Source: Gluconacetobacter liquefaciens (GTDB lineage: Bacteria; Pseudomonadota; Alphaproteobacteria; Acetobacterales; Acetobacteraceae). Taken from it: 64,000 bases of DNA. Positions 17,403 through 62,068 of this stretch are shown one piece after another. The notes under the pieces are model-generated. The model saw nothing but the letters and a program-made list of their open reading frames with translations. It searched no databases and had not been told where the DNA came from. The DNA is taken from the NCBI RefSeq assembly GCF_003350405.1, contig NZ_QQAW01000004.1:248001-312000 (forward strand), given 5' to 3'. The first letter of the stretch is position 1. Every line of letters starts with the position of its first letter. Position numbers and translations under genes: made by a program.

Positions 17403-17443
17403 CGACCGCCTGCAAGGTCGCATCCCGAAACGATCGGCAAACG

Positions 17444-17466
17444 CGTGGCCGGCCATGCCGGCCACG
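17444..17466. terminator. Hairpin between convergent efflux operon and dehydrogenase gene
   Basis: A perfect 10-bp GC-rich stem (CGTGGCCGGC / GCCGGCCACG) with a 3-base loop lies 41 bp after the outer-membrane-factor stop. The rest of the 17403-17564 gap shows no gene. Confidence 0.6.
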
Positions 17467-17564
17467 ATTCGGCGATGCGCGCCCCTTCAGGCCACCCTCA
17501 CCCACCAGCCAACATTTCCCGGCCGGTTCCCATCCTTTGCCGACCCGGTCCGGCAAGCACCCGA

Positions 17565-26275: not shown

Positions 26276-27646
26276 TCATGCCGCGCCGTGGGCCATGATC
26301 AGCGCAATGGCGCAGGAGGTCAGCCGCGCCTGCTCGGAATCCGCGCGGCTGGTCAAAATCACCGGCACCTTCGCGCCCAGCACCACGCCCGCGGCATCCG
26401 CGCCGGCCAGGAAGGACAGTTCCTTGGCCAGCATGTTGCCCGCCTCCAGCGTCGGCACGATCACGATATCCGCCCGCCCGGCCACGGGAGAATCGATATG
26501 CTTGATCTTCGCGGCATTCAGGTTCACCGCGTTGTCGAAGGCCAGCGGCCCATCGACGATGCCGCCCGTGATCTGCTTGCGGTCGGCCATCTTCGACAGC
26601 ACGGCCGCATCCAGCGTGGACTGGATCGCCGGGTTGACGGTCTCCACCGCCGAAAGAACGGCCACGCGCGGTTCCGCCAGACCCAGCACATGCGCGAAAT
26701 CGATCACGTTCTGCACGATGTCATGCTTGGCCCGCACGTCCGGCGCAATGTTCACCACCGCGTCGCTGATCATCAGCAACCGGTCATAGAACGGCACGTC
26801 CATGACAAAGACATGGCTCAGGCGGCGATCGGCGCACAGGCCGGTCGGGCGCGCCACCACTTCGTGCAGCAATACGTCGGTATGCACGGCGCCCTTCATC
26901 AGCAGGCGCGCACGCCCCGAGCGCACCAGCGCCACCGCCTGGACCGACGCCGCATGCGCGTCCTCGGCCTCGACGATCTCCAGCCCGTCGATCGACAGGC
27001 CGGAATCCTTGGCGACGGATTCGATCAGCGCCTTCGGCCCGACCAGGATCGGCTGCCCCAGCCCACGCTGGGCCGCATCGCAGGCCGAACGCAGCGACAG
27101 GTCATCGCAGGGATAGGCCACGGCGATCGGCAGGGCCGGCAACTGGGCCGCCTTCTCGCACAGGGTACGGAAACGGCGATGCGTCACGATATGCTCGAAC
27201 GACGAACAGGCCATGACCACCGATTGCGGCGCCTGCGGCGCCTGGATCTGCATGGTGCCCCGCGCCACCTCGCCCCCGTCCTGCCGCACGCCGACGAAGG
27301 ACAGGTCCAGCAGCGCATCCGCATCATGCTTCGCCACCACCTGGCAGGTCACCACCACCCGGTCACCGACCGACAGGACATCGCCTCCCAGCGTCAGCGC
27401 ATAGCTGCGCACCACGCTGCCCACACCGGGGAAGCGGGTGCTGACCAGCCGCATGACCAGGATGCCGATCCACACGCTCGCCACCGACTGCGATACGGAA
27501 GCCGTCTCGACCCCTGCCCCATCGGGCTGCCATCCGCCCAGCAGGTCCGCATTGTCCCTGGTCAGGATCTCGGTCAGGTCGGCCTTCTCACCAACCGCGA
27601 TATCCTTGAACAACCGATTGGTCACGAGTTCCTGGGTCTTATCCAC
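26276..27646 (-). CDS. MaoC-phosphate acetyl/butyryltransferase fusion protein
   Basis: A 456-residue fusion. Residues about 5-145 form a MaoC-like hot-dog domain (LFKDIAVGEKADLTEILTRD; dehydratase-type). Residues about 165-456 form a phosphotransacetylase domain with YPCDDLSLRSACDAAQRG, MKGAVHTDVLLHEV, DVPFYDRLLMISDAVVN and the nucleotide-side segment DAAGVVLGAKVPVILTSRAD. This is the architecture annotated as bifunctional enoyl-CoA hydratase/phosphate acetyltransferase. It would convert acetyl-CoA to acetyl phosphate, suiting the nearby pyruvate:ferredoxin oxidoreductase. An FNR-type site lies 76 bp upstream. No acetate kinase gene is adjacent. Confidence 0.9.
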   Translation of the reverse strand: MDKTQELVTNRLFKDIAVGEKADLTEILTRDNADLLGGWQPDGAGVETASVSQSVASVWIGILVMRLVSTRFPGVGSVVRSYALTLGGDVLSVGDRVVVTCQVVAKHDADALLDLSFVGVRQDGGEVARGTMQIQAPQAPQSVVMACSSFEHIVTHRRFRTLCEKAAQLPALPIAVAYPCDDLSLRSACDAAQRGLGQPILVGPKALIESVAKDSGLSIDGLEIVEAEDAHAASVQAVALVRSGRARLLMKGAVHTDVLLHEVVARPTGLCADRRLSHVFVMDVPFYDRLLMISDAVVNIAPDVRAKHDIVQNVIDFAHVLGLAEPRVAVLSAVETVNPAIQSTLDAAVLSKMADRKQITGGIVDGPLAFDNAVNLNAAKIKHIDSPVAGRADIVIVPTLEAGNMLAKELSFLAGADAAGVVLGAKVPVILTSRADSEQARLTSCAIALIMAHGAA

Positions 27647-27721
27647 CAGCGATTTTCCTTCGGACAGAAAGGGGATGAACGATCAATTTCCCGTTATGAT
27701 ACCGGCGAACAGGCAACCGCG

Positions 27722-27735
27722 TTGATCCCGATCAA
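27722..27735. promoter_or_regulatory. FNR/FixK-type site TTGATCCCGATCAA upstream of phosphotransacetylase gene
   Basis: The sequence is a perfect match to the TTGAT-N4-ATCAA consensus. On the minus strand, a -10-like TATCAT lies at 27701-27696. The site is centred about 40 bp upstream of the implied transcription start, near the class II activator position. Confidence 0.75.
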
Positions 27736-27759
27736 AGCAGACCCATTACTGCCAATTTT

Positions 27760-27925
27760 AGAGCCTGACCGAAAATGCGCGCTGGCGGCAATCCAACGCG
27801 CGTTTCCTGCGCTTCGGTGCTCATGGCCGTCAAGGCCACTCCGCTCCGATGCTCGGAAACACACGTCGGGCGCGGCCCGAAACGGGCCGCTCTCGCTCGC
27901 CAGCCCACATTTTCGGTCAGGCTCT
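27760..27925. repeat. Structured intergenic repeat, copy A (166 bp, 18-bp terminal inverted repeats)
   Basis: The ends AGAGCCTGACCGAAAATG (27760-27777) and its exact reverse complement (27908-27925) enclose a GC-rich core. The core contains smaller hairpins such as GCGGCCCG-AAA-CGGGCCGC and GGCC-GTCAA-GGCC. It is homologous in its core to copies at 27931 and 29145, and inverted relative to them. TTAGAG occurs at both outer edges (27758 and 27925), a possible target duplication. Short ORFs inside it look like by-products. Confidence 0.8.
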
Positions 27926-27930
27926 TAGAG

Positions 27931-28079
27931 ACGGCCAGAGAAATCGGCCCGCCGAGCGCGCATGCCGCAAAGCAGTGCGCCCGGCGTGTATTTTCAAGCA
28001 TCTGAGCGGAACGGCCCTGATGGCCGCCCACTTTTGCAAAAGTGCCCCTTAGGGTCTGACCGAAAATTCGGTCAGCTTC
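27931..28079. repeat. Structured intergenic repeat, diverged copy B
   Basis: The segment around 27985-28027 (GCGCCCGGCGTG, AGCATCTGAGCGGAACGGCC, ATGGCCG) aligns with copy C at 29197-29245 in the same orientation, so it is a decayed copy inverted against copy A. It ends with two perfect palindromes, CACTTTTGCAAAAGTG (28029-28044) and CTGACCGAA-AA-TTCGGTCAG (28056-28075). The second reuses the arm sequence of copy A and abuts the stop codon of the dihydroorotate-dehydrogenase-like gene, where it may terminate transcription. Confidence 0.65.
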
Positions 28080-29090
28080 CTACAGTCGCGAAGCCGATCG
28101 CGCATCATAGGTGGTCAGGATCGTCCGATACTGCGCCCGCAGGAACTGCGCCGCCTCATCGGGCTGCCCACCTGCCGCAAGCTGCCCCTTGAAGGCCGCC
28201 ACCGACTCATGCCCCCGGCGCTCCATCCAGCCGCGCAGTTCGCCCAGCAGCGTGCCCAGATACGCCGGCCCATGCCGCAGCAGCGCGGAGGTCGTCATCA
28301 CCGCATCCGCCCCCGCCAGCAGATATTTCACCACATCCGCCCCGCTCCACACACCCGTCGATGCCGCGATCGAGGTCGGAATCCGCCGCGACAGCAGCCC
28401 GACCCACATCAGTGGCAGGCGAATGTCGTAAGGATTGCTCAGATGCAAGTCATCGCGCGCCGTCAGCGCCGCCAGATCGACATCCGGCCCGTAGAACCGG
28501 TTGAACAGCACCAGCCCATCCGCGCCGGCCTCGGCGAACTGCGCCGCCATATGGCCGGGCGCACTGAAGAAGGGCGCCATCTTCACGCTGACCGGCACGC
28601 CCACAGCCGCCTTCACCCGGCGCAGGATCTCCAGCGCCGCCGCCTCGACCGAGGGGCCACTTTCCACCGGGTCGGCGGGCACGCGATAGATGTTGAGTTC
28701 GATCGCCGACGCCCCCGCCTGCTCCAGCTTGCGGGCGAAATCGACCCATCCGCTGGCTGAACAGCCGTTCAGGCTGGCGATGATCGGCACTCCGGCCCGC
28801 TCCACCGCGCGCCGCAGAATTTCCAGCCGCCCATCCAGCACGTTGCTGCCCGCATCCGGCGGCCAATAACCCGCCGCTTCCGGCTGGGAATCGGTCACCA
28901 TCTCCGTCATGGCCGCCTCGGCCAGTTCCTGGGCGACGATCTGCTCCTCGAAGATCGACGACAGCACAACCGCCGCCGCCCCCGCATCGGCCAGCCGCAT
29001 GATGCCATCCAACTCGGCACAAAGCGGCGACGCCGAAGCAACGATCGGATGCGCCAGCTCAAGACCAAGATAAGTCGTTCTCAAATCCAT
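28080..29090 (-). CDS. Dihydroorotate dehydrogenase-like (PreA-type) flavoprotein
   Basis: A 336-residue TIM-barrel FMN protein. It starts MDLRTTYLGLELAHPIVASASPL and has VPIIASLNGCSASGWVDFAR, AIELNIYRVPAD, VPVSVKMAPFFSAPGHMAAQ with the FMN-binding lysine, and GVWSGADVVKYLLAGADAVM at the phosphate end. Such proteins accompany pyruvate:ferredoxin oxidoreductase genes and are usually labelled dihydroorotate dehydrogenase-like; they are not the pyrD enzyme of pyrimidine synthesis. It is downstream of nifJ in the same orientation, separated by repeat C. The electron acceptor and substrate are unknown. Confidence 0.86.
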   Translation of the reverse strand: MDLRTTYLGLELAHPIVASASPLCAELDGIMRLADAGAAAVVLSSIFEEQIVAQELAEAAMTEMVTDSQPEAAGYWPPDAGSNVLDGRLEILRRAVERAGVPIIASLNGCSASGWVDFARKLEQAGASAIELNIYRVPADPVESGPSVEAAALEILRRVKAAVGVPVSVKMAPFFSAPGHMAAQFAEAGADGLVLFNRFYGPDVDLAALTARDDLHLSNPYDIRLPLMWVGLLSRRIPTSIAASTGVWSGADVVKYLLAGADAVMTTSALLRHGPAYLGTLLGELRGWMERRGHESVAAFKGQLAAGGQPDEAAQFLRAQYRTILTTYDARSASRL

Positions 29091-29144
29091 GCCCCTACCC
29101 CTCTCCCATTATAAAATCTAAAGAAAATACGCAGATATAATCGA

Positions 29145-29308
29145 AGTTTATGCCCGAAAACGTGGACTGGTGAGCGAGAGCGGCCCTGCGGGCCGCGCCC
29201 GTCGTGCATTTCCGAGCACCGGAGCGGAGCGGCCTCAATGGCCGTGAGCACCGGAGCGCAGGAAACGCGCGTCGGCTCGCCACCAGCGCGCGTTTCCGGG
29301 CATAAACT
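29145..29308. repeat. Structured intergenic repeat, copy C (164 bp), abutting the nifJ stop
   Basis: The arms AGTTTATGCCCGAAAACG (29145-29162) and CGTTTCCGGGCATAAACT (29291-29308) are complementary at 17 of 18 positions. They differ from copy A's arms although the cores are clearly homologous. Core hairpins include GCGGCCC-TGC-GGGCCGC and GGCC-TCAAT-GGCC. The right arm ends on the nifJ stop codon, so the element may act as the nifJ 3' end. Upstream, 29091-29144 is AT-rich and could carry a promoter for the next gene. Confidence 0.8.
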
Positions 29309-32300
29309 CAGGGGATGTCTTCCCAGTGGGGTAGAAACCGGCTGCCGTCGCGGGCGGCCATGTCTTCATAGACGCGATAGCGCTCCTGCGCCGCCGCCTC
29401 GGCCTGTTGCAGCAGATGCCCGGCCGATTCCGGATGCGTGCGCAGCAGGGTCTTGTACCGCAGTTCCCGATAGGCATAATCCTTCAGCGGGATCCGCTGA
29501 GGCGGCGAATCCAGCCGGAACGGATTCAACCCGGCCTTGCGCATCGTGGGGTCGAAGCGGAACAGCGGCCAGTATCCCGATGCCACCGCCCGCGCCGCCT
29601 GCTTCATGCCGGTGCGCATGTCGATGCCATGCGCAATGCACTGCGAATAGGCCAAGATCAGCGAAGGCCCGTCATAGGCTTCCGCCTCACGCATCGCGAT
29701 CAGCGCCTGTTCCGAGTTCGCCCCCAGTGCAATCTGCGCGACATAGACGGTGCCGTAGGAAATCGCCTGCAACGCCAGGTCCTTGCGCGGCACCCGCTTG
29801 CCGGCGGCCGCGAACTTCGCACTCGCCCCCAGCGGCGTCGCCTTCGAGGACTGGCCGCCGGTGTTCGAATAGACCTCGGTATCCAGCACCAGCACGTTCA
29901 CATTGCGGCCCTGCGCCAGCACATGGTCCAGCCCGCCGTAATCGATGTCATAGGCCCAGCCATCCCCACCGACGATCCAGATCGAACGCCGGACCAGGAA
30001 ATCCGCCAGAATCAGAAGGTTTTTCGCATCCGGCCCTTCGATCGCAGCCAACCGCGTCTTCAGCGCCGCCACCCGCTCGCGCTGCTCGGCATAATCGCGC
30101 TCGGTGTGCTGCGTCTTGGCAAGGATGGTCTCCGCCAGATCCTGCCCCACCTTCGGCGCCAGCCGGGTCAGCAGATCGCGCGCCAGCCCGGTCTGCTTGT
30201 CCACCGCCAGGCGGAAACCCAACCCGAATTCGGCATTATCCTCGAACAGCGAGTTCGCCCAGGCCACCCCGCGCCCCTCGGCATTCGCCTTCCAGGCATG
30301 GGCCGGCATGTTGGCGGCATAAATCGCCGAACAGCCCGTGGCATTGGCAATCTGCATCCGGTCACCGAAAAGCTGCGAGATCAGCTTCAGATACGGCGTT
30401 TCACCACACCCCGCGCAGGCACCGCTGAACTCGAACAACGGTTCGAGCAACTGCACGCCCCGAACATTGGCCTGATTCACCGTCGTCCGGTCCGCGGTCG
30501 GCAATGTTTCGAAGAAGCTGATATTCTCCCGCTCCTGCTCCAGGATCGGCAGCTTCTCGCCCATATTGATGGCCCGATGCACACCATCCTCGGCAATGGC
30601 GGGGCAGTTTTCCACGCACACGCCGCAGCCCGTGCAATCCTCGACATAGAATTGCAGCGAGAAACGGGAATCCGGATACCCGCGTGCATTGACCGGCGCG
30701 GAGCGGAAATGCTCCGGCGCCCCCTCCAGCGCGTCCTCGTCATAGATCTTGGCGCGGATCACGCTATGCGGGCAGACAATGCTGCACTGGCCGCACTGGA
30801 TGCACGCATCCTGATCCCAGATCGGCACCTCGACCGCGATATTGCGCTTCTCATATTGCGTGGTGCCACAAGGGAACGTGCCATCCGCCGGGATCTTGCT
30901 GACCGGAATCGCCTCACCCCGGCTGGCCATGATCTCGCCCGTCACCTCGCGCACGAACAGCGGCGCGGTCGCCGGCACGATCGGCGGCATCGCGACCGTC
31001 CCCGTGGCCGCCTGCGGCACCGTCACTTCATGCAGCGCGGCAACCGCTCCATCCACGGCGGCGAAATTCAGCTTCACCACCGCATCGCCCTTGGCGCCAT
31101 AGCTCTTGGTGATGAAATGCTTGATCTGCGCCACCGCCTCGTCCGGCGGCAACACCTTGGACAGATGGAAGAAGCAGGTCTGCAACACCGTGTTCACACG
31201 CGGCCCCAGCCCGATCTTCAACGCCACGTCCGAGGCATCGATCACGAAGAAGCGCAGCTTCTTGGCCACGATCTGGTCCTGCACCCGACGCGGCAGCTTG
31301 TCCCACACCACATCCGGCCCATACGGGCTGTTCAGCAGGAAGGTCGCCCCGTCGATGGCCGGCCCGAGAATATCGCGCTTGAACAGGAATTCGAACTTGT
31401 GACAGGCCACGAAATCCGCATGGCGGATCAGGTAGGGCGCCGCGATCTGCGCCGTGCCGAACCGCAGGTGCGAAATCGTCTCGCCGCCCGATTTGTGCGA
31501 ATCATAGTCGAAATAGGCCTGCGCGAACCGCCCCGGCTGCTCGCTCAGGATCTTCACGCTGTTCTTGTTCGCGCCCACCGTGCCGTCGGCGCCCAGCCCG
31601 TAGAACAGGCAGCGCACGGTATCTTTCGGCTCGATATCCAGGTTCTGGTCGTATTCCAGCGTGGTATGGCTTACATCGTCGTCGATGCCGAGCGTGAAAT
31701 TATTCTTCGGCGCGGGCTTCGCCAGTTCGTCGAAGACCGCCTTGACCATGCCCGGATTGAAATCGCGCGACGACAGGCCGTAGCGGCCACCGATCACGCG
31801 CGGCATCGCGGCAATCTTTCCATTGCCGAATGCCTGTGCCAGCACGCCCAGCACGTCGGCATAAAGCGGCTCCATCGGCGCGCCCGGTTCCTTGGTGCGG
31901 TCCAGCACCGCGATCGACTTCACCCCCGGCGGCAGCGCCGCCAGGAAATGCTCCGCCGAGAACGGGCGATAAAGCAGCACCTGCAAGGCGCCCACCTTCT
32001 CTCCGGGCCGGTTCGCTCCCTGGCGGTTCATCCACAGCGCGGTCTCCCGCACCACTTCCGCACCCGACCCCATGCTGATGATCACACGCTCGGCATCCGC
32101 CGGCCCGTCATAACGGAACAGGCGATAGGCCCGGCCGGTCTGGGCGGTGAACCTGTCCATCACCTCCTGCACGATGCCCGGCACCTTCGCATAGTACGGG
32201 TTCACCGCCTCGCGCGTCTGGAAATAGGTATCGGGATTCTGCCAGGTACCGCGAATGAACGGATTATTCGGCGTCAGCGCGCGGTTGCGATGCGCATGCA

Positions 32301-32898
32301 CCAGATCGTCGTCGATCATGGCCCGGATCACGCTGTCGGGCATGATCTTCAGCATGTTGTATTCGTGCGACGTGCGGAACCCGTCGGTGAAGTGGATAAA
32401 CGGCACCCGCGCCGCCAGCGTCGCCGCCTGCGCGATCAGCGCCAGGTCGTGCCCTTCCTGCACCGAGGCCGCACCCAGGATCGCGAAACCCGTCGGCCGC
32501 GCCGCCATGATATCCTGATGGTCGCCGAAGATCGACGATCCACCGGCCGCCAGCGCACGCGCCGCCACATGAAAGACCGTGGCGGTCAGTTCGCCGGCGA
32601 TCTTGTACATGTTGGGCAGCATCAGCATCAGCCCCTGCGACGCCGTAAAGGTCGTCGTCAGGGCACCGCTTTGCAGCGATCCATGCACGCAGCCCGCGGC
32701 ACCGCCTTCGGCCTGCATTTCCTGCACTTCGGGGATATCGCCCCAGATATTGCGCAGCCCCTGGTCCGACCAGGCATCGGCCAGTTCGGCCATCGGCGAG
32801 GACGGCGTGATGGGATAGATGGCGCAGATCTCATTGACCCGATAGGCCACATGCGCGACGGCGGTGTTGCCATCCATCGTGGCGGTCTGTTCGGTCAT
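29308..32898 (-). CDS. nifJ: Pyruvate:ferredoxin (flavodoxin) oxidoreductase
   Basis: A 1196-residue single-chain enzyme, the usual length. The start MTEQTATMDGNTAVAHVAYR at 32898 is preferred (AGAAGG five bases upstream and family fit); ATG codons at 32922 and 32931 are alternatives. YPITPSSPMAELADAW begins the pyruvate domain. Two 4Fe-4S motifs (CIQCGQCSIVCPHS and CTGCGVCVENCP, about 690-760) form the ferredoxin domain. CAGCGETPYLKL and GDGWAYDIDYGGLDHVL...EVYSNTGGQ form the thiamine-diphosphate domain. It oxidises pyruvate plus CoA to acetyl-CoA, CO2 and reduced ferredoxin or flavodoxin. It is the second gene of an operon with the flavoprotein at 34601, under an FNR-type site. Confidence 0.95.
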   Translation of the reverse strand: MTEQTATMDGNTAVAHVAYRVNEICAIYPITPSSPMAELADAWSDQGLRNIWGDIPEVQEMQAEGGAAGCVHGSLQSGALTTTFTASQGLMLMLPNMYKIAGELTATVFHVAARALAAGGSSIFGDHQDIMAARPTGFAILGAASVQEGHDLALIAQAATLAARVPFIHFTDGFRTSHEYNMLKIMPDSVIRAMIDDDLVHAHRNRALTPNNPFIRGTWQNPDTYFQTREAVNPYYAKVPGIVQEVMDRFTAQTGRAYRLFRYDGPADAERVIISMGSGAEVVRETALWMNRQGANRPGEKVGALQVLLYRPFSAEHFLAALPPGVKSIAVLDRTKEPGAPMEPLYADVLGVLAQAFGNGKIAAMPRVIGGRYGLSSRDFNPGMVKAVFDELAKPAPKNNFTLGIDDDVSHTTLEYDQNLDIEPKDTVRCLFYGLGADGTVGANKNSVKILSEQPGRFAQAYFDYDSHKSGGETISHLRFGTAQIAAPYLIRHADFVACHKFEFLFKRDILGPAIDGATFLLNSPYGPDVVWDKLPRRVQDQIVAKKLRFFVIDASDVALKIGLGPRVNTVLQTCFFHLSKVLPPDEAVAQIKHFITKSYGAKGDAVVKLNFAAVDGAVAALHEVTVPQAATGTVAMPPIVPATAPLFVREVTGEIMASRGEAIPVSKIPADGTFPCGTTQYEKRNIAVEVPIWDQDACIQCGQCSIVCPHSVIRAKIYDEDALEGAPEHFRSAPVNARGYPDSRFSLQFYVEDCTGCGVCVENCPAIAEDGVHRAINMGEKLPILEQERENISFFETLPTADRTTVNQANVRGVQLLEPLFEFSGACAGCGETPYLKLISQLFGDRMQIANATGCSAIYAANMPAHAWKANAEGRGVAWANSLFEDNAEFGLGFRLAVDKQTGLARDLLTRLAPKVGQDLAETILAKTQHTERDYAEQRERVAALKTRLAAIEGPDAKNLLILADFLVRRSIWIVGGDGWAYDIDYGGLDHVLAQGRNVNVLVLDTEVYSNTGGQSSKATPLGASAKFAAAGKRVPRKDLALQAISYGTVYVAQIALGANSEQALIAMREAEAYDGPSLILAYSQCIAHGIDMRTGMKQAARAVASGYWPLFRFDPTMRKAGLNPFRLDSPPQRIPLKDYAYRELRYKTLLRTHPESAGHLLQQAEAAAQERYRVYEDMAARDGSRFLPHWEDIP

Positions 32899-32927
32899 GT
32901 CGACCTTCTCCGTTCCTGTCATGTCGC

Positions 32928-34601
32928 TCATGCCCGCACCTTGAAGGCCGACGGTGCCGGGGAGGTATCCGTTCCCACGGCTTCCGGCTCCATTTCGATC
33001 GCATGGCAGGGGCACTGCTCGAAACAGGCCGCGCACCCGGTGCACAGATCCATCGAAACCGCATAACCCTGCCCCGGCCCCAGCCGGGTAATCGCCTGTT
33101 CAGGACAGGCGGCATAGCAATTGTCGCACTCGAAGCAATTGCCGCACGAAAGGCAGCGCTGCGCCTCATAGCGGGCATGGCGCTCATCCAGCCCGGCATC
33201 GACCTCCGCGAAATCGTGGCGTTCGGCCACCGGCGTCTCGGCCTGCACGCTGCGCGGCGCATCGCGGTAATCCGGCAGATGCAGCATGTCGAAGCTGACC
33301 AGCGGATGCGCCGCCGGATGTTCGTAGGTCCGGCCCGCCAGCCACGCATCGATCGCCCGCGCCGCCAGCTTGCCGTGCCCAGTCGCCGTCGTCATGGTCC
33401 GCGCGCCACCAATGCAGTCGCCACCTGCGAAAATACCGGCCTGCCCGGTCATCAGGTCGGCATCCACCGCAACGGTGCCGTCCTTCTGCACCTTCACTGC
33501 CGTCGCCTCCGCCAGCAGCGACAGGTCGGTGTGCTGGCCCACCGCCAGCACCACCGCATCGGCGGCCAGCCGCTCCGTCTCGCCTGTCGGCGTCACGCTG
33601 CCATCGGGGTTCATGGTCACCTTCTCGACCACCAGCCCGTCGGCACCGAAATGATCGACCACGCTCAGCCAGCGCACCTTGGCCCCTTCGGCGACGGCCT
33701 CGGCCGCCTCGGCCGGCAGGGCTTCCATATGCTGCTGGTCATAGCGGAAGATGATGACCGTATCGGTCGCCCCCAACCGCCGCGCGGTCCGCGCGGCATC
33801 CATCGCCACGTTGCCGCCGCCGACCACCGCCACCACGCGCCCCAGCGCCGGACGCCCGCCCCGGCTGACATCGCCCAGCAGGCTGATCGCGTCGGTCATC
33901 TTCCGGCCATCCATGGCCGGAATGTTCAGGCGGTTGGCCAACTGCGCGCCAACCCCCACGAACACCGCGTCGAAGCCCCCTTCCTGCTTCGCCCGCACCA
34001 CGTCGTCGACCCTCTGGCCACACCGCAATGTCACCCCGGGCACCCCCGTGATTCGGGCGATCTCCCTCCCCATCACCTCTCGGGGCAGACGGTAGGCCGG
34101 GATGCCGTAGCGCATCATCCCGCCCGGCTGCTCCGCCGCGTCGCGGATCTCCACCTGATGCCCCATCCGCGCCAGATGCCAGGCGCAGGACAAGCCCGCC
34201 GGTCCCGCGCCGACGACCAGAACCTTCTTGCCGCTGGCCGGCGCCACCGAAACCTGCCAGCCCTTCTCGGTCGCCAGATCGCCCAGAAACCGTTCGACCG
34301 AATGAATGGCCACCGGCGCATCCAGTTCGCCCCGGTTACAGCCGCCTTCACACGGATGGTAGCAGGCCCGACCATGGATGGCGGGCATGGGGTTGTTGGC
34401 CACCAGCGCGTGCCACGCCTTCTCGTACTCGCCAGCCTGGGCCAGCGCCAGCCAGCCCTGAATGTCCTCGCCGGCCGGGCAGGCATGGTTACAGGGCGGC
34501 AGGAAATGCATGTAGACGGGCTTCTGCCAGCGCCGGCTGCCAACCCCGCGCCGCGTCGTCTCCTGCAGCACCTGCGTCATGTCATCGAGTTTCAATACCA
34601 T
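32928..34601 (-). CDS. GltD-like NAD(P)/FAD oxidoreductase with C-terminal ferredoxin domain
   Basis: A 557-residue Fe-S flavoprotein. The N-terminal cysteine-rich domain (CNHACPAGEDIQ, YHPCEGGCNRG; about 35-100) matches the glutamate-synthase small subunit and PreT. FAD and NAD(P) Rossmann folds follow (VLVVGAGPAGLSCAWHLA, VVAVVGGGNVAMDAARTA). A C-terminal double 4Fe-4S domain (CLSCGNCFECDNCYAACP and CTGCAACFEQCPCHA) is added, which plain GltD lacks. It is the first gene of the nifJ operon, overlapping the earliest nifJ start. It probably shuttles electrons between ferredoxin and NAD(P)H. It is not the glutamate-synthase subunit, since no gltB is nearby. Confidence 0.9.
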   Translation of the reverse strand: MVLKLDDMTQVLQETTRRGVGSRRWQKPVYMHFLPPCNHACPAGEDIQGWLALAQAGEYEKAWHALVANNPMPAIHGRACYHPCEGGCNRGELDAPVAIHSVERFLGDLATEKGWQVSVAPASGKKVLVVGAGPAGLSCAWHLARMGHQVEIRDAAEQPGGMMRYGIPAYRLPREVMGREIARITGVPGVTLRCGQRVDDVVRAKQEGGFDAVFVGVGAQLANRLNIPAMDGRKMTDAISLLGDVSRGGRPALGRVVAVVGGGNVAMDAARTARRLGATDTVIIFRYDQQHMEALPAEAAEAVAEGAKVRWLSVVDHFGADGLVVEKVTMNPDGSVTPTGETERLAADAVVLAVGQHTDLSLLAEATAVKVQKDGTVAVDADLMTGQAGIFAGGDCIGGARTMTTATGHGKLAARAIDAWLAGRTYEHPAAHPLVSFDMLHLPDYRDAPRSVQAETPVAERHDFAEVDAGLDERHARYEAQRCLSCGNCFECDNCYAACPEQAITRLGPGQGYAVSMDLCTGCAACFEQCPCHAIEMEPEAVGTDTSPAPSAFKVRA

Positions 34602-42632: not shown

Positions 42633-44729
42633 TCAGGCACCCAGACAGGATAAAAGCTCTTCCACCGGCCGGGGCCGCGCGAACAGATAGCCCTGGACCT
42701 CATCGCAGCCCATCCCGGCGAGAAGCCTATGCTGTTCGTCCGTTTCCACCCCTTCAGCCGTGACACACAGTTCCAGAGAATGGGCGAGGCTGAGAATGGT
42801 CTGCGTGATCCTGAGAACCTTGTCCTGCGACATCGCCTGGACAAATCCGCAATCGATCTTGATCTTGCTAAACGGAAAGGACCAGAGATATTTCAGCGAG
42901 GAATAGCCGGTCCCAAAATCGTCCAGTACCAGTCGGCAACCAATCTCGACCAGCCTGCGCAGCGCGGCCTGATTCGATTTTTCATTTTTCAGGAAAGATG
43001 TTTCGGTAATCTCGATTTCCAGCCGATGCGCCGGCAGGCCGGTCTGCTGCAAGATTCTCAACACCATGTCGGGAAAGGCCGCATCGCCGAGTTGGATTGG
43101 CGACACGTTCACCGCCACCCTCACGCCGGCAGGCCAGGCTACCGCCTCGCGGCACGCGGCCTGTAGAACCCACTGCCCCAGCGTGTGGATCAGCCCGTTC
43201 TGCTCGGCCAGCGCAATGAACTGGTCCGGCATGATCAGCCCATGCACCGGATGCCGCCAGCGTACCAGGGCCTCGCAACTCGTCACCTGGCGGCCCGTGC
43301 GATCGTAGATCGGCTGGAAATGCACGGTCAGGGCATCGGTCGCCAGCGCATCGCGCAACTCCCCGGTCAGGATCGCGGCACTTCTCACCTCTTCGCTCAA
43401 CGCGGCCTGGAACTGGGCGAAGCGGTTCCGCCCCCGGGCCTTCGCGCGATACATCGCCATGTCAGCATGCTGCAGCAGGGTCTCCGCACTGTCGGCATCT
43501 TCGGGAAAACGGGCAGACCCGATACTGGCCCCGATCACGATCCGCTTGCCATCCACCTGATAGGGCGCGCTCAGCGACGCCAGGAGCGGCGTCATCCGCC
43601 CGTCGATTTCCAACGGCGAGGAGGTATTGGGCCATAGAATGGCGAATTCATCCCCACCAAGACGGGCAATCAGGTCGCCGGGCCGGCTGTGCTCACGCAG
43701 ACGGCCGGCCACCAGGCGCAGCAGGGCGTCTCCCGCTGCATGACCATGGACATCATTTACGGTCTTGAAATAATCAAGGTCGATATAGAATAGAACGCCC
43801 TGCCTGTTTTCGCCGCACAACGCCTCCAGTTGCACGCTGAACAGCCGGCGATTGCACAGGTCGGTCACCTTATCATAATGAGCCAGCCGCTCGATCTGCC
43901 GCTCGTTATCGCGGTAAACCGTCACGTCATCAAAAACATACAGATCCCATAACGGCGTCCCCGACTGATCAGCGATCAGCAGGCGATTGATGATCAGGTC
44001 CCGCCGGTTTCCCTGCGGGTCGTCCAGGGAACACTCCATGGTCGCCTGCCCGTCACCCGCCGGCACCCCATCCGTCATGCAGGATGCCATACCGATCATC
44101 TTTTCAGACAGGGCGGAGTCCCCGAACCGCTTTGCCGCGCGGTTCATCAGAATGACGTCCCCGTCCACAACCGAGCGGACGATCAGCGGCGACGGCACAT
44201 TCTGGACGATCCGGTCGATGAACAGCTTGTCACGCAGGATCTTCTCATTCGCCTCATGCAACCTGTCCGTCGCCATGCGCAGTTCGGAGAGCGCCGTCTG
44301 TTTGGCGGCATGCGCGTGACGAACCAGATCAATAGCCGACCCTACCCCCAGGCAGAACCCGCGTTCGACCACAATGAAGCCCAGCAGAAGTTCCGAGGCG
44401 TTCGCCCCCAGTGCCTGCGGTAGAAAGTCCGCCACCAGCACGTCAGCCTCGACGATGGTCGGGCGGGGGTCCATCAGCAGCGTGACCGGGCGCCGATGAT
44501 AGACCGAATATCCATACTGACCGGCCATCCGCACATGAAAAGTGTGACGGTCGACAAGCCCCAGCGCGCGTCCGCCGTGATCGACGATCACAATATACAG
44601 CAGGTCGGGATCACGCTCGAAATACTGCATGACATCCCCGCCAACGGCCGTTTCCGGCAGGATGGGCACCACGGCCGCGATATCGCGCATCGTCTGCGCG
44701 GCCACCGCACCATTCTCCTGCATCGTCAT
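42633..44729 (-). CDS. GGDEF-EAL cyclic di-GMP protein with PAS and CBS-like domains
   Basis: A 698-residue soluble signalling protein. The N-terminal 150 residues resemble a CBS pair (VVPILPETAVGGDVMQYFER, YIVIVDHGGRALGLVDRHTF). A PAS-like domain (about 165-275) follows. The GGDEF domain contains RLGGDEFAILWPNT with RPGD five residues before it, an intact inhibitory I-site. The EAL domain contains CEALVRWRHPVHG, NVSPIQL, EITET, DDFGTGYSSLKYLW, KIKIDCGFV and AEGVETDEQ, so all catalytic residues appear present. It could both make and degrade c-di-GMP. In acetic acid bacteria c-di-GMP controls exopolysaccharide synthesis. The gene stands alone. Confidence 0.92.
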   Translation of the reverse strand: MTMQENGAVAAQTMRDIAAVVPILPETAVGGDVMQYFERDPDLLYIVIVDHGGRALGLVDRHTFHVRMAGQYGYSVYHRRPVTLLMDPRPTIVEADVLVADFLPQALGANASELLLGFIVVERGFCLGVGSAIDLVRHAHAAKQTALSELRMATDRLHEANEKILRDKLFIDRIVQNVPSPLIVRSVVDGDVILMNRAAKRFGDSALSEKMIGMASCMTDGVPAGDGQATMECSLDDPQGNRRDLIINRLLIADQSGTPLWDLYVFDDVTVYRDNERQIERLAHYDKVTDLCNRRLFSVQLEALCGENRQGVLFYIDLDYFKTVNDVHGHAAGDALLRLVAGRLREHSRPGDLIARLGGDEFAILWPNTSSPLEIDGRMTPLLASLSAPYQVDGKRIVIGASIGSARFPEDADSAETLLQHADMAMYRAKARGRNRFAQFQAALSEEVRSAAILTGELRDALATDALTVHFQPIYDRTGRQVTSCEALVRWRHPVHGLIMPDQFIALAEQNGLIHTLGQWVLQAACREAVAWPAGVRVAVNVSPIQLGDAAFPDMVLRILQQTGLPAHRLEIEITETSFLKNEKSNQAALRRLVEIGCRLVLDDFGTGYSSLKYLWSFPFSKIKIDCGFVQAMSQDKVLRITQTILSLAHSLELCVTAEGVETDEQHRLLAGMGCDEVQGYLFARPRPVEELLSCLGA

Positions 44730-61229: not shown

Positions 61230-62068
61230 CCAGCCGCGTCCACGCACGGAGCAGACACACCCGTCAGGGCGGCTTCGCCCTGCTGATCGTGCTGTGGACG
61301 CTGGCAGGGCTGTCGCTGCTCGTCTCCATCGTCATCGCGACAGCCGGCACCGAACTCCGCGGCGTCCGTGCGCTGAGGCTTTCGGCCCAGATGCAGGAAG
61401 CCGCGGATGGAGCCGTCTGGCAGGCGATCTTTCATGCCATGGACCGCTCCGCCGCTCGCTGGGCCCTGGACGGCCGCGCCTATGTCACGCAGATGGAGGG
61501 GCTGACTTTCACCACGCGGCTGCACAGCGAAGCCGGCCTGATCAATCCCAACACCGCTCCCCGCCCCCTGCTGGCCGCCCTGATCGAGGCATGCGGCGGC
61601 ACCGCCACCCAGGCGGCATCAATCGCAGCCAGCATGGTGGAATGGCGCAGCAGTGCGCAGGGAAACGTCGCGGCCATGCGCGCCCGCTATCTGGCTGCGG
61701 GGCTGACCTACCGTCCGCCGCAGGCCGCCTTCCAGACGATCGGCGAAATCGGGCTGGTTCTGGGCATGAATCCGGACCTGCTGCGTGCGCTCACGCCCCA
61801 TCTTTCCGTCACGCAGCCAAACGATCCGGACATCACACAGGCCGACGCCACAGTGCGACAGGCCCTGCGCAGGTCAGGCGAGTTCCCGCCCCCGTCGCCC
61901 TCAGGCGACAAGAACCGCCCCAATAGTTTCCGGGTCGAGATTACCGTCCAGGACGGCCATGGTGGCCGCGCCGCCCGTCAGGCGGTCATCCTGCTCACCC
62001 CGGCGACACAACCCGGCACCCCTCTCACCGATATGGTGCATATCGTGCAGCTACAGCAGGAGAAGTAA
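61226..62068 (+). CDS. Type II secretion minor pseudopilin GspK
   Basis: A 280-residue protein starting at GTG 61226, overlapping the lsdD stop. The prepilin motif RQGG followed by FALLIVLWTLAGLSLLVSIV lacks Glu5, as is normal for GspK, the tip subunit. LIDPNxAP-like GLINPNTAPRPLLAALIEAC and the helix-hairpin-helix region TIGEIGLVLGMNPDLLRAL are GspK signatures. It is the last gene of the operon and was not part of the published lsd gene list as I recall it. A weak stem (CTGAA/TTCAG, 62077-62096) lies before convergent cysE. Confidence 0.9.
   Translation: MTSRVHARSRHTRQGGFALLIVLWTLAGLSLLVSIVIATAGTELRGVRALRLSAQMQEAADGAVWQAIFHAMDRSAARWALDGRAYVTQMEGLTFTTRLHSEAGLINPNTAPRPLLAALIEACGGTATQAASIAASMVEWRSSAQGNVAAMRARYLAAGLTYRPPQAAFQTIGEIGLVLGMNPDLLRALTPHLSVTQPNDPDITQADATVRQALRRSGEFPPPSPSGDKNRPNSFRVEITVQDGHGGRAARQAVILLTPATQPGTPLTDMVHIVQLQQEK

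Follow-up and report, generated by a model that had tools for sequence, protein, structure and literature searches.

In a 64,000-nucleotide stretch of the genome of Gluconacetobacter liquefaciens (hereafter the window), a GC-rich, foldable repeat occurs in copies whose outer arms differ in sequence and yet remain complementary within each copy. This raises the question of what the repeat is, and of how two arms can change while continuing to pair. An earlier note on this DNA described three copies (A, B and C) and proposed either selection on a folded form or the insertion of a core into existing palindromes, such as terminators. The results described here show the repeat to be non-autonomous, with the hallmarks of a MITE of the IS1031 type (IS5 family). 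The element family is new but belongs to a known kind; it is unusual in its exact, oriented position at stop codons and in the compensated turnover of its arms. No earlier description of this family was found in the literature searched, most subscription journals lying outside the coverage of that search.

The copies and the adjoining genes, the latter called from open reading frames (ORFs) and a codon-position heuristic rather than from an annotation, are as follows:

26276–27646, minus strand: phosphate acetyl/butyryl transferase-like gene, the next gene downstream of A and B (ORF; Pfam PTA_PTB)
27758–27760, plus strand: TTA target-site duplication to the left of A (from the sequence; single in the empty site)
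27761–27924, plus strand: copy A, a full element and recent insertion, with left arm 27761–27786, core 27787–27898 and right arm 27899–27924 (cmsearch 176.9 bits; missing at the orthologous site of G. dulcium, L075)
27925–27927, plus strand: TTA target-site duplication to the right of A (from the sequence)
27928–28079, minus strand: copy B, a truncated old copy one end of which adjoins the DHO_dh-like gene at its stop codon (20.9 bits and E 0.0055 by cmsearch)
28080–29090, minus strand: dihydroorotate-dehydrogenase-like gene, its TAG stop at 28080–28082 adjoining B (ORF; Pfam DHO_dh)
29146–29307, minus strand: copy C, a full element that immediately follows the pyruvate:ferredoxin oxidoreductase stop codon in sense orientation, with stop-side arm 29282–29307, core 29172–29281 and far arm 29146–29171 (cmsearch 170.6 bits; orthologues in L075–L079)
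29308–33045, minus strand: pyruvate:ferredoxin oxidoreductase gene, its TGA stop at 29308–29310 adjoining C (ORF; Pfam POR_N and POR)

Copies A and C are full elements, as originally described; B is truncated, and the limits of all three have been corrected to those given above. The GC-rich core with complementary arms is real (complementarity over the outer 28 nt is 93% in A and 86% in C), and the two differing stems reported earlier, GCGGCCCG-AAA-CGGGCCGC and GCGGCCC-TGC-GGGCCGC, are present in the sequence. A and C are oppositely oriented (inverted matches of 114 nt and 36 nt), and A, unlike B and C, adjoins no stop codon. A similar truncated copy B is found in G. dulcium (L075). The DHO_dh-like protein shares 85–98% identity with proteins from five named Gluconacetobacter species, a sixth match (40%) coming from a Bacteroidales bin. 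Elsewhere in the window, three weak model matches (17427–17529, 42947–43041 and 61554–61650; E 0.0076 to 0.23) may be degraded copies or chance.

The element is about 162 bp long (A 164 bp, C 162 bp) and has a conserved core of about 111 bp, shaped as a rod plus two side hairpins in a six-helix structure, flanked by 26-bp inverted arms. As in a MITE, it is shorter than about 200 bp, lacks a transposase gene of its own and ends in terminal inverted repeats. The arms were compared in 136 full-core copies out of 151 matches, partial ones being left out: 43 from this genome, 5 from L075–L079 and 88 from 80 regions of relatives, 20 of which were chosen mostly for a match ending at about positions 8–117, so that unusual arms are over-represented. 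With these copies aligned on the core, 73–98% of bases form Watson–Crick pairs at each position out to position 26, except at positions 7 (32%), 9 (38%) and 15 (60%); pairing is 60% at position 27 and 14–41% at positions 28–45. Each arm pairs with its own partner at an average of 21.0 of the 26 positions, versus 14.6 with the partner from another copy. The idea that arms differ between copies while pairing with their own partners is thereby upheld, although calling them unrelated was too strong: they have a common consensus, many match IS5-family ends, and paired variants occur among the orthologues of C. At about 162 bp with 26-bp arms, the element is not a REP or BIME of the GTAG- or CGTC-tagged type (a 20–40 bp palindrome with an end tag). 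Nor is it a known structured RNA family, since no curated model of Rfam 15 matched (0 matches at the gathering score across the window, and 0 at E ≤ 1 over 27600–29400). A plasmid collection queried with copy A yielded no match.

A covariance model built from 45 copies picked for diversity, one of them swapped by hand, gave 76 matches at E ≤ 0.001 in this 4.17-Mb, 31-contig genome, a figure in which one or more places are counted twice, once per strand. Across the family, the model matched 15 of 60 genomes, or 14 of 59 genera. A search at the DNA level was positive in 17 of 40 genomes, namely this one, every one of the 13 other genomes listed for the genus, and G014, G020 and G033. The element, correctly described earlier as dispersed, structured and non-autonomous, has spread through a family of acetic-acid bacteria (Acetobacteraceae). 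Tandem arrays occur in this genome (G000; C7:92015-92509 and C11:45815-46294) and in L155, L160, L172 and L181, and their inner units often have a poorly pairing left arm. Short hairpins devoid of most of the core are found at site C7 in L225, L234 and L235, at site C8 in L267, and in L095; whether at the same stop codons or elsewhere, they are apparently internal-deletion derivatives.

Evidence for mobility comes from three clean pairs of empty and filled sites, a test that the earlier note had put forward. G. dulcium L075 lacks copy A and has a single TTA (TAA as read on the other strand) in place of the TTA-element-TTA found here. At C8:51202 and C1:289069, both compared with G010, a TGA is duplicated: the filled sites ATGGCC-TGA-[element]-TGA-GGCTG and GAATTC-TGA-[element]-TGA-CATCG correspond to the empty sites ATGGCCTGAGGCTG, in G010, and GAATTCTGATATCG, respectively. 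Insertion thus creates a 3-bp TNA duplication, and the arms are missing from each empty site. With fixed ends, equal flanking triplets are seen in 26 of the 136 copies (11.5 expected), 21 of them TNA; 36 of 158 copies have a duplication if the ends may shift by 2 nt in its favour, a procedure that inflates the count of young copies.

The IS1031 subgroup is reported in PMC12016507 to prefer TNA targets and to generate 3-bp repeats, the example described being TGA. In agreement with the earlier note, no transposase of the PF13340 type lies nearby: none of the six matches of this genome is on the contig of the window. A search for PF13340 transposases yielded 30 loci from 10 of the 14 Gluconacetobacter genomes (G010–G013 being left out) and five others. 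Four of these loci, L199 and L213 in G001 and L205 and L212 in G004, have equal TNA triplets outside inverted ends starting with GAG, and the proteins scanned from two of them (L199 and L205) are both IS5-family transposases (NF033580). The ends of L213 agree with the element arms at L186 and L188 at 16 of 17 bases, versus at most 12 for shuffled ends, and those of L199 match element arms in 15 of 17 (shuffled best 12–13); the element thus has ends in common with autonomous insertion sequences, via those of sister species. The ends of L205 and L212 scored 13 and 12 against the arms, not above their shuffled maxima of 14 and 12. None of the 30 loci examined contains an insertion sequence with copy A's own arm type, and the core matched none of the four insertion sequence bodies tested at E ≤ 0.01; the true donor may lie outside these four, and not all MITEs need have arisen from an insertion sequence by internal deletion. 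The IS5-family element of G004 (L205, L212 and other places) is represented by 13 equally scoring transposase matches, with TTA and TAA duplications in the two loci examined. The same genome harbours a subfamily of the repeat (L135, L137, L138, L140-L142, L144-L146) in which one arm or both resemble GAGGCTGTTTCAAAAGCC, pointing to a different insertion sequence as donor.

Because of the empty sites, the matches to IS5-family ends and the TNA preference of the IS1031 subgroup, the arms are most plausibly terminal inverted repeats rather than captured terminators. The proposal that the core inserts into existing palindromes, which would supply the arms, could draw on the strong differences between the arms of different copies and on the terminator-like appearance of some, but it seems highly improbable: the arms enter together with the core, being absent from all three empty sites, their paired length is fixed at 26 bp, and they have a common consensus that often resembles the ends of IS5-family elements.

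The element is often found at stop codons, and there mostly in one orientation. In 84 of the 136 copies, the left arm is no more than 15 nt from a sense stop codon, which it adjoins exactly in 50; for antisense stop codons the corresponding number is 14 (3 exact). With a limit of 2 nt and 158 copies, the element adjoins a stop codon in sense in 80 and in antisense in 7. This set comprises 36 copies with a TNA duplication (19 sense, 3 antisense, 14 neither) and 122 without (61 sense, 4 antisense, 1 both, 56 neither). In a set of 20 regions (21 rows) selected solely by their resemblance to A, 11 were sense, 4 antisense and 6 neither at up to 12 nt. In other genera, seven of nine loci were readable: the sense stop codon adjoins exactly in two, lies within 3 nt in three and is 9 nt away in one, and two of the seven have an antisense stop codon, at distances of 2 and 12 nt (without codon filter). 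TGA stop codons are often used as targets, leaving the protein intact.

These biases, for stop codons and for orientation, are seen already among the young copies, with no significant difference in orientation between young and old (Fisher 0.36). This would be expected of a purely selfish MITE, placed by its choice of TNA targets and by purging from within genes, with arms kept complementary by hairpin-templated mutation, and devoid of host function. Tandem, truncated and core-deleted copies and the patchy distribution (15 of 60 family genomes) are also consistent with such an element. A symmetric target is, by itself, no explanation of the orientation bias, and the 19 sense versus 3 antisense insertions are, in these small numbers, not clearly predicted by target choice alone. 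The bias is not clearly an effect of target sequence, because the young copies away from stop codons have TGA (7), TCA (4) and TTA (3) as targets; the numbers are small, and an oriented target sequence as sole cause is not clearly supported. Old copies are, moreover, kept at the same stop codon in up to six of the seven genomes compared. A purely selfish element seems rather unlikely. The flanks were followed across six genomes with 16 pieces, picked mostly for nearness to a stop codon, one of which (C10:15947) has no orthologue in the six.

Across species, many copies have kept their place at a given stop codon even as their two arms changed in concert. In the 45 diverse copies, 90.1% of cells pair, versus 79.8% when shuffled and 33.9–41.1% when slid; 41 of the 65 pairs change on both sides, and the 346 doubly changed cells (106.8 when shuffled) were reached in 0 of 500 shuffles, which upholds the compensatory change described earlier. 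At site C, the element adjoins the same stop codon in this genome and in five species, with arms GTTTATGCCCG, GTTTCTGCCCG, GTTTTGGGCCG or GTTTTGGCCCG, each opposite its own complement. Site C7 is full in this genome, G001 and G004, contains short hairpins in G003, G005 and G007 and is without the element in G010; at site C12, G003 has a mismatched state between two better-paired ones. Orthologues with 90–97% coding identity (48 comparisons, not independent) display 121 both-sided Watson–Crick changes (66 transversions) for 32.7 expected, and 90 one-sided changes. The corresponding figures are 7 for 1.3 expected, with 14 one-sided, at 97% coding identity or more, and 87 for 34.7 expected, with 89 one-sided, below 90%. 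Paired changes cluster, with 50 adjacent versus 37.1 under a null that keeps row and column totals (0 of 400), or 7 versus 4.1 (9 of 400) in one non-redundant set. In 45 comparisons at 90–96% coding identity, mean identity is 84–86% for the arms, 90% for the core and 93% for coding sequence.

Covariation of this strength in a six-helix structure adjoining stop codons exactly, and in sense, could reflect a functional 3'-end RNA structure spread by transposition, with selection on the RNA causing the compensatory changes. Re-initiation block, mRNA stabilisation or cleavage, and transcription termination are the roles proposed for such a putative RNA. Structures located right after stop codons have been reported to govern re-initiation (PMC7518266), and SPRITE repeats are described as enriched near gene 3' ends (PMC3049150). 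The termini of the element are also enriched in runs: AAA at the left end in 35 of the 136 copies, versus 2 in a window further out, and TTT at the right end in 42, versus 17 and 16 in downstream windows. Against a plain terminator role, there is no enrichment between convergent genes: the neighbours downstream of 70 sense copies are tandem in 47 cases, convergent in 18 and not called in 5, close to the background of the window (20 to 6). The presence of the orientation bias in young copies speaks against a functional 3'-end RNA.

Folding and mismatches also bear on this question. Selection on RNA usually leaves a clear surplus of G-U pairs. In 132 of the 136 copies, the better-folding strand is the one antisense to the upstream gene (mean -109.5 vs -94.5 kcal/mol), because a few consensus positions are G-U on that strand; selection on sense-strand RNA is accordingly disfavoured as the main cause. 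On the better-folding (bottom) strand, the rarer mismatches, when pooled, lean towards G-U over A-C (139/108 in the arms, 54/28 in the core; 194 versus 122, and in 34 of 40 columns, in another pooled count), but the difference is significant in none of the four genome subsets: this genome (arms 39/37, core 20/15), G001 (15/11, 5/2), G004 (12/12, 4/4) and other genomes (46/36, 6/7). The pooled surplus may stem from common ancestry of the copies. The pooled lean thus favours selection on the antisense strand, yet there is no significant difference within subsets. Certain wobble pairs in the core show conservation, such as that at columns 62/132 (122 of 135), and these, together with the pooled surplus, may mean that something also acts on the folded bottom strand. 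Selection on a folded form, as the earlier note proposed, is possible, and a functional 3'-end RNA as the source of the compensatory changes can be entertained as a tentative alternative, short of an even chance. Because the G-U preference is weak and significant in no subset, a DNA-level process is at least as likely as RNA selection, and the pattern fits hairpin-templated DNA copying at least as well. Template switching in hairpins has been described as making and maintaining stems with multi-base compensatory changes (PMC8794818).

The explanation that best joins these results, to which we give slightly better than even credence, is that of an IS1031-type MITE moved in trans, with arms re-paired by template switching and a stop-side hairpin that is tolerated or used. 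IS5-family transposases encoded elsewhere in these genomes would move the element; a hairpin formed during DNA replication would allow one arm to be re-copied from the other, and the arms would stay complementary largely through this re-copying. A hairpin beside a stop codon would be tolerated, or used as a 3'-end structure of the gene, such that sense copies at stop codons are kept; a 3'-end role, suggested by position, is putative. The conserved core wobble pairs and pooled G-U surplus, which ready hairpin correction should erase, count against this explanation, as do the lack, among the loci examined, of an insertion sequence with the arm type of A and of a match between the core and the four insertion sequence bodies. 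The more specific claim that a mobile element enters stop codons in one orientation and has its hairpin kept paired by DNA template switching more than by RNA selection is rather unlikely. If true, it would show that strong base-pair covariation can arise naturally in the absence of selection on RNA, and the element would supply gene 3' ends with structures throughout the family. Covariation is widely taken as evidence of functional RNA, and the dozens of copies per genome, with their empty sites and orthologues, make it possible to ask whether RNA selection or DNA copying is its source. Its exact position at stop codons, in the orientation of the gene, also makes the element a natural source of 3'-end structures in Acetobacteraceae that can be put to the test.

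Several known systems resemble this element in part. According to PMC2229807, ERIC, IRU, RU-1 and other enterobacterial MITEs are also 100–200 bp long, with long stem-loop transcripts and orientation-dependent effects on adjacent mRNA, but the TIR listed there for ERIC is 7 bp long, with TA at the termini, whereas the present element has 26-bp arms, TNA duplications and exact adjoining of stop codons. SPRITE, of Streptococcus pneumoniae, is another small repeat found near gene 3' ends and possibly co-opted; PMC3049150 describes it as rich in AT, with terminal repeats of 4 nt and without an established duplication, unlike the GC-rich element studied here, which has 26-bp arms and empty sites. 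GTAG and CGTC REPs are palindromic repeats whose ends can provide flanking ORFs with a stop codon, but they are 20–40 bp long, and CGTC repeats are reported missing in Acetobacteraceae (PMC3733652). Ribosome termination structures are, similarly, stable mRNA structures directly after stop codons; the abstract of PMC7518266 describes them without mobile elements, and the role of the structure studied here is putative. The closest likeness is to the IS1031 subgroup and derived MITEs, with a TNA target, a 3-bp duplication and ends of the GAGNCTG form in common (the ISLrh end reported in PMC12016507 being GAACCTG); sister species carry IS5-family elements with ends similar to those of the element. 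It differs from this subgroup and its MITEs in its 26-bp arms diversified by paired changes, in a core unlike the four insertion sequence bodies and in its strong sense orientation at stop codons.
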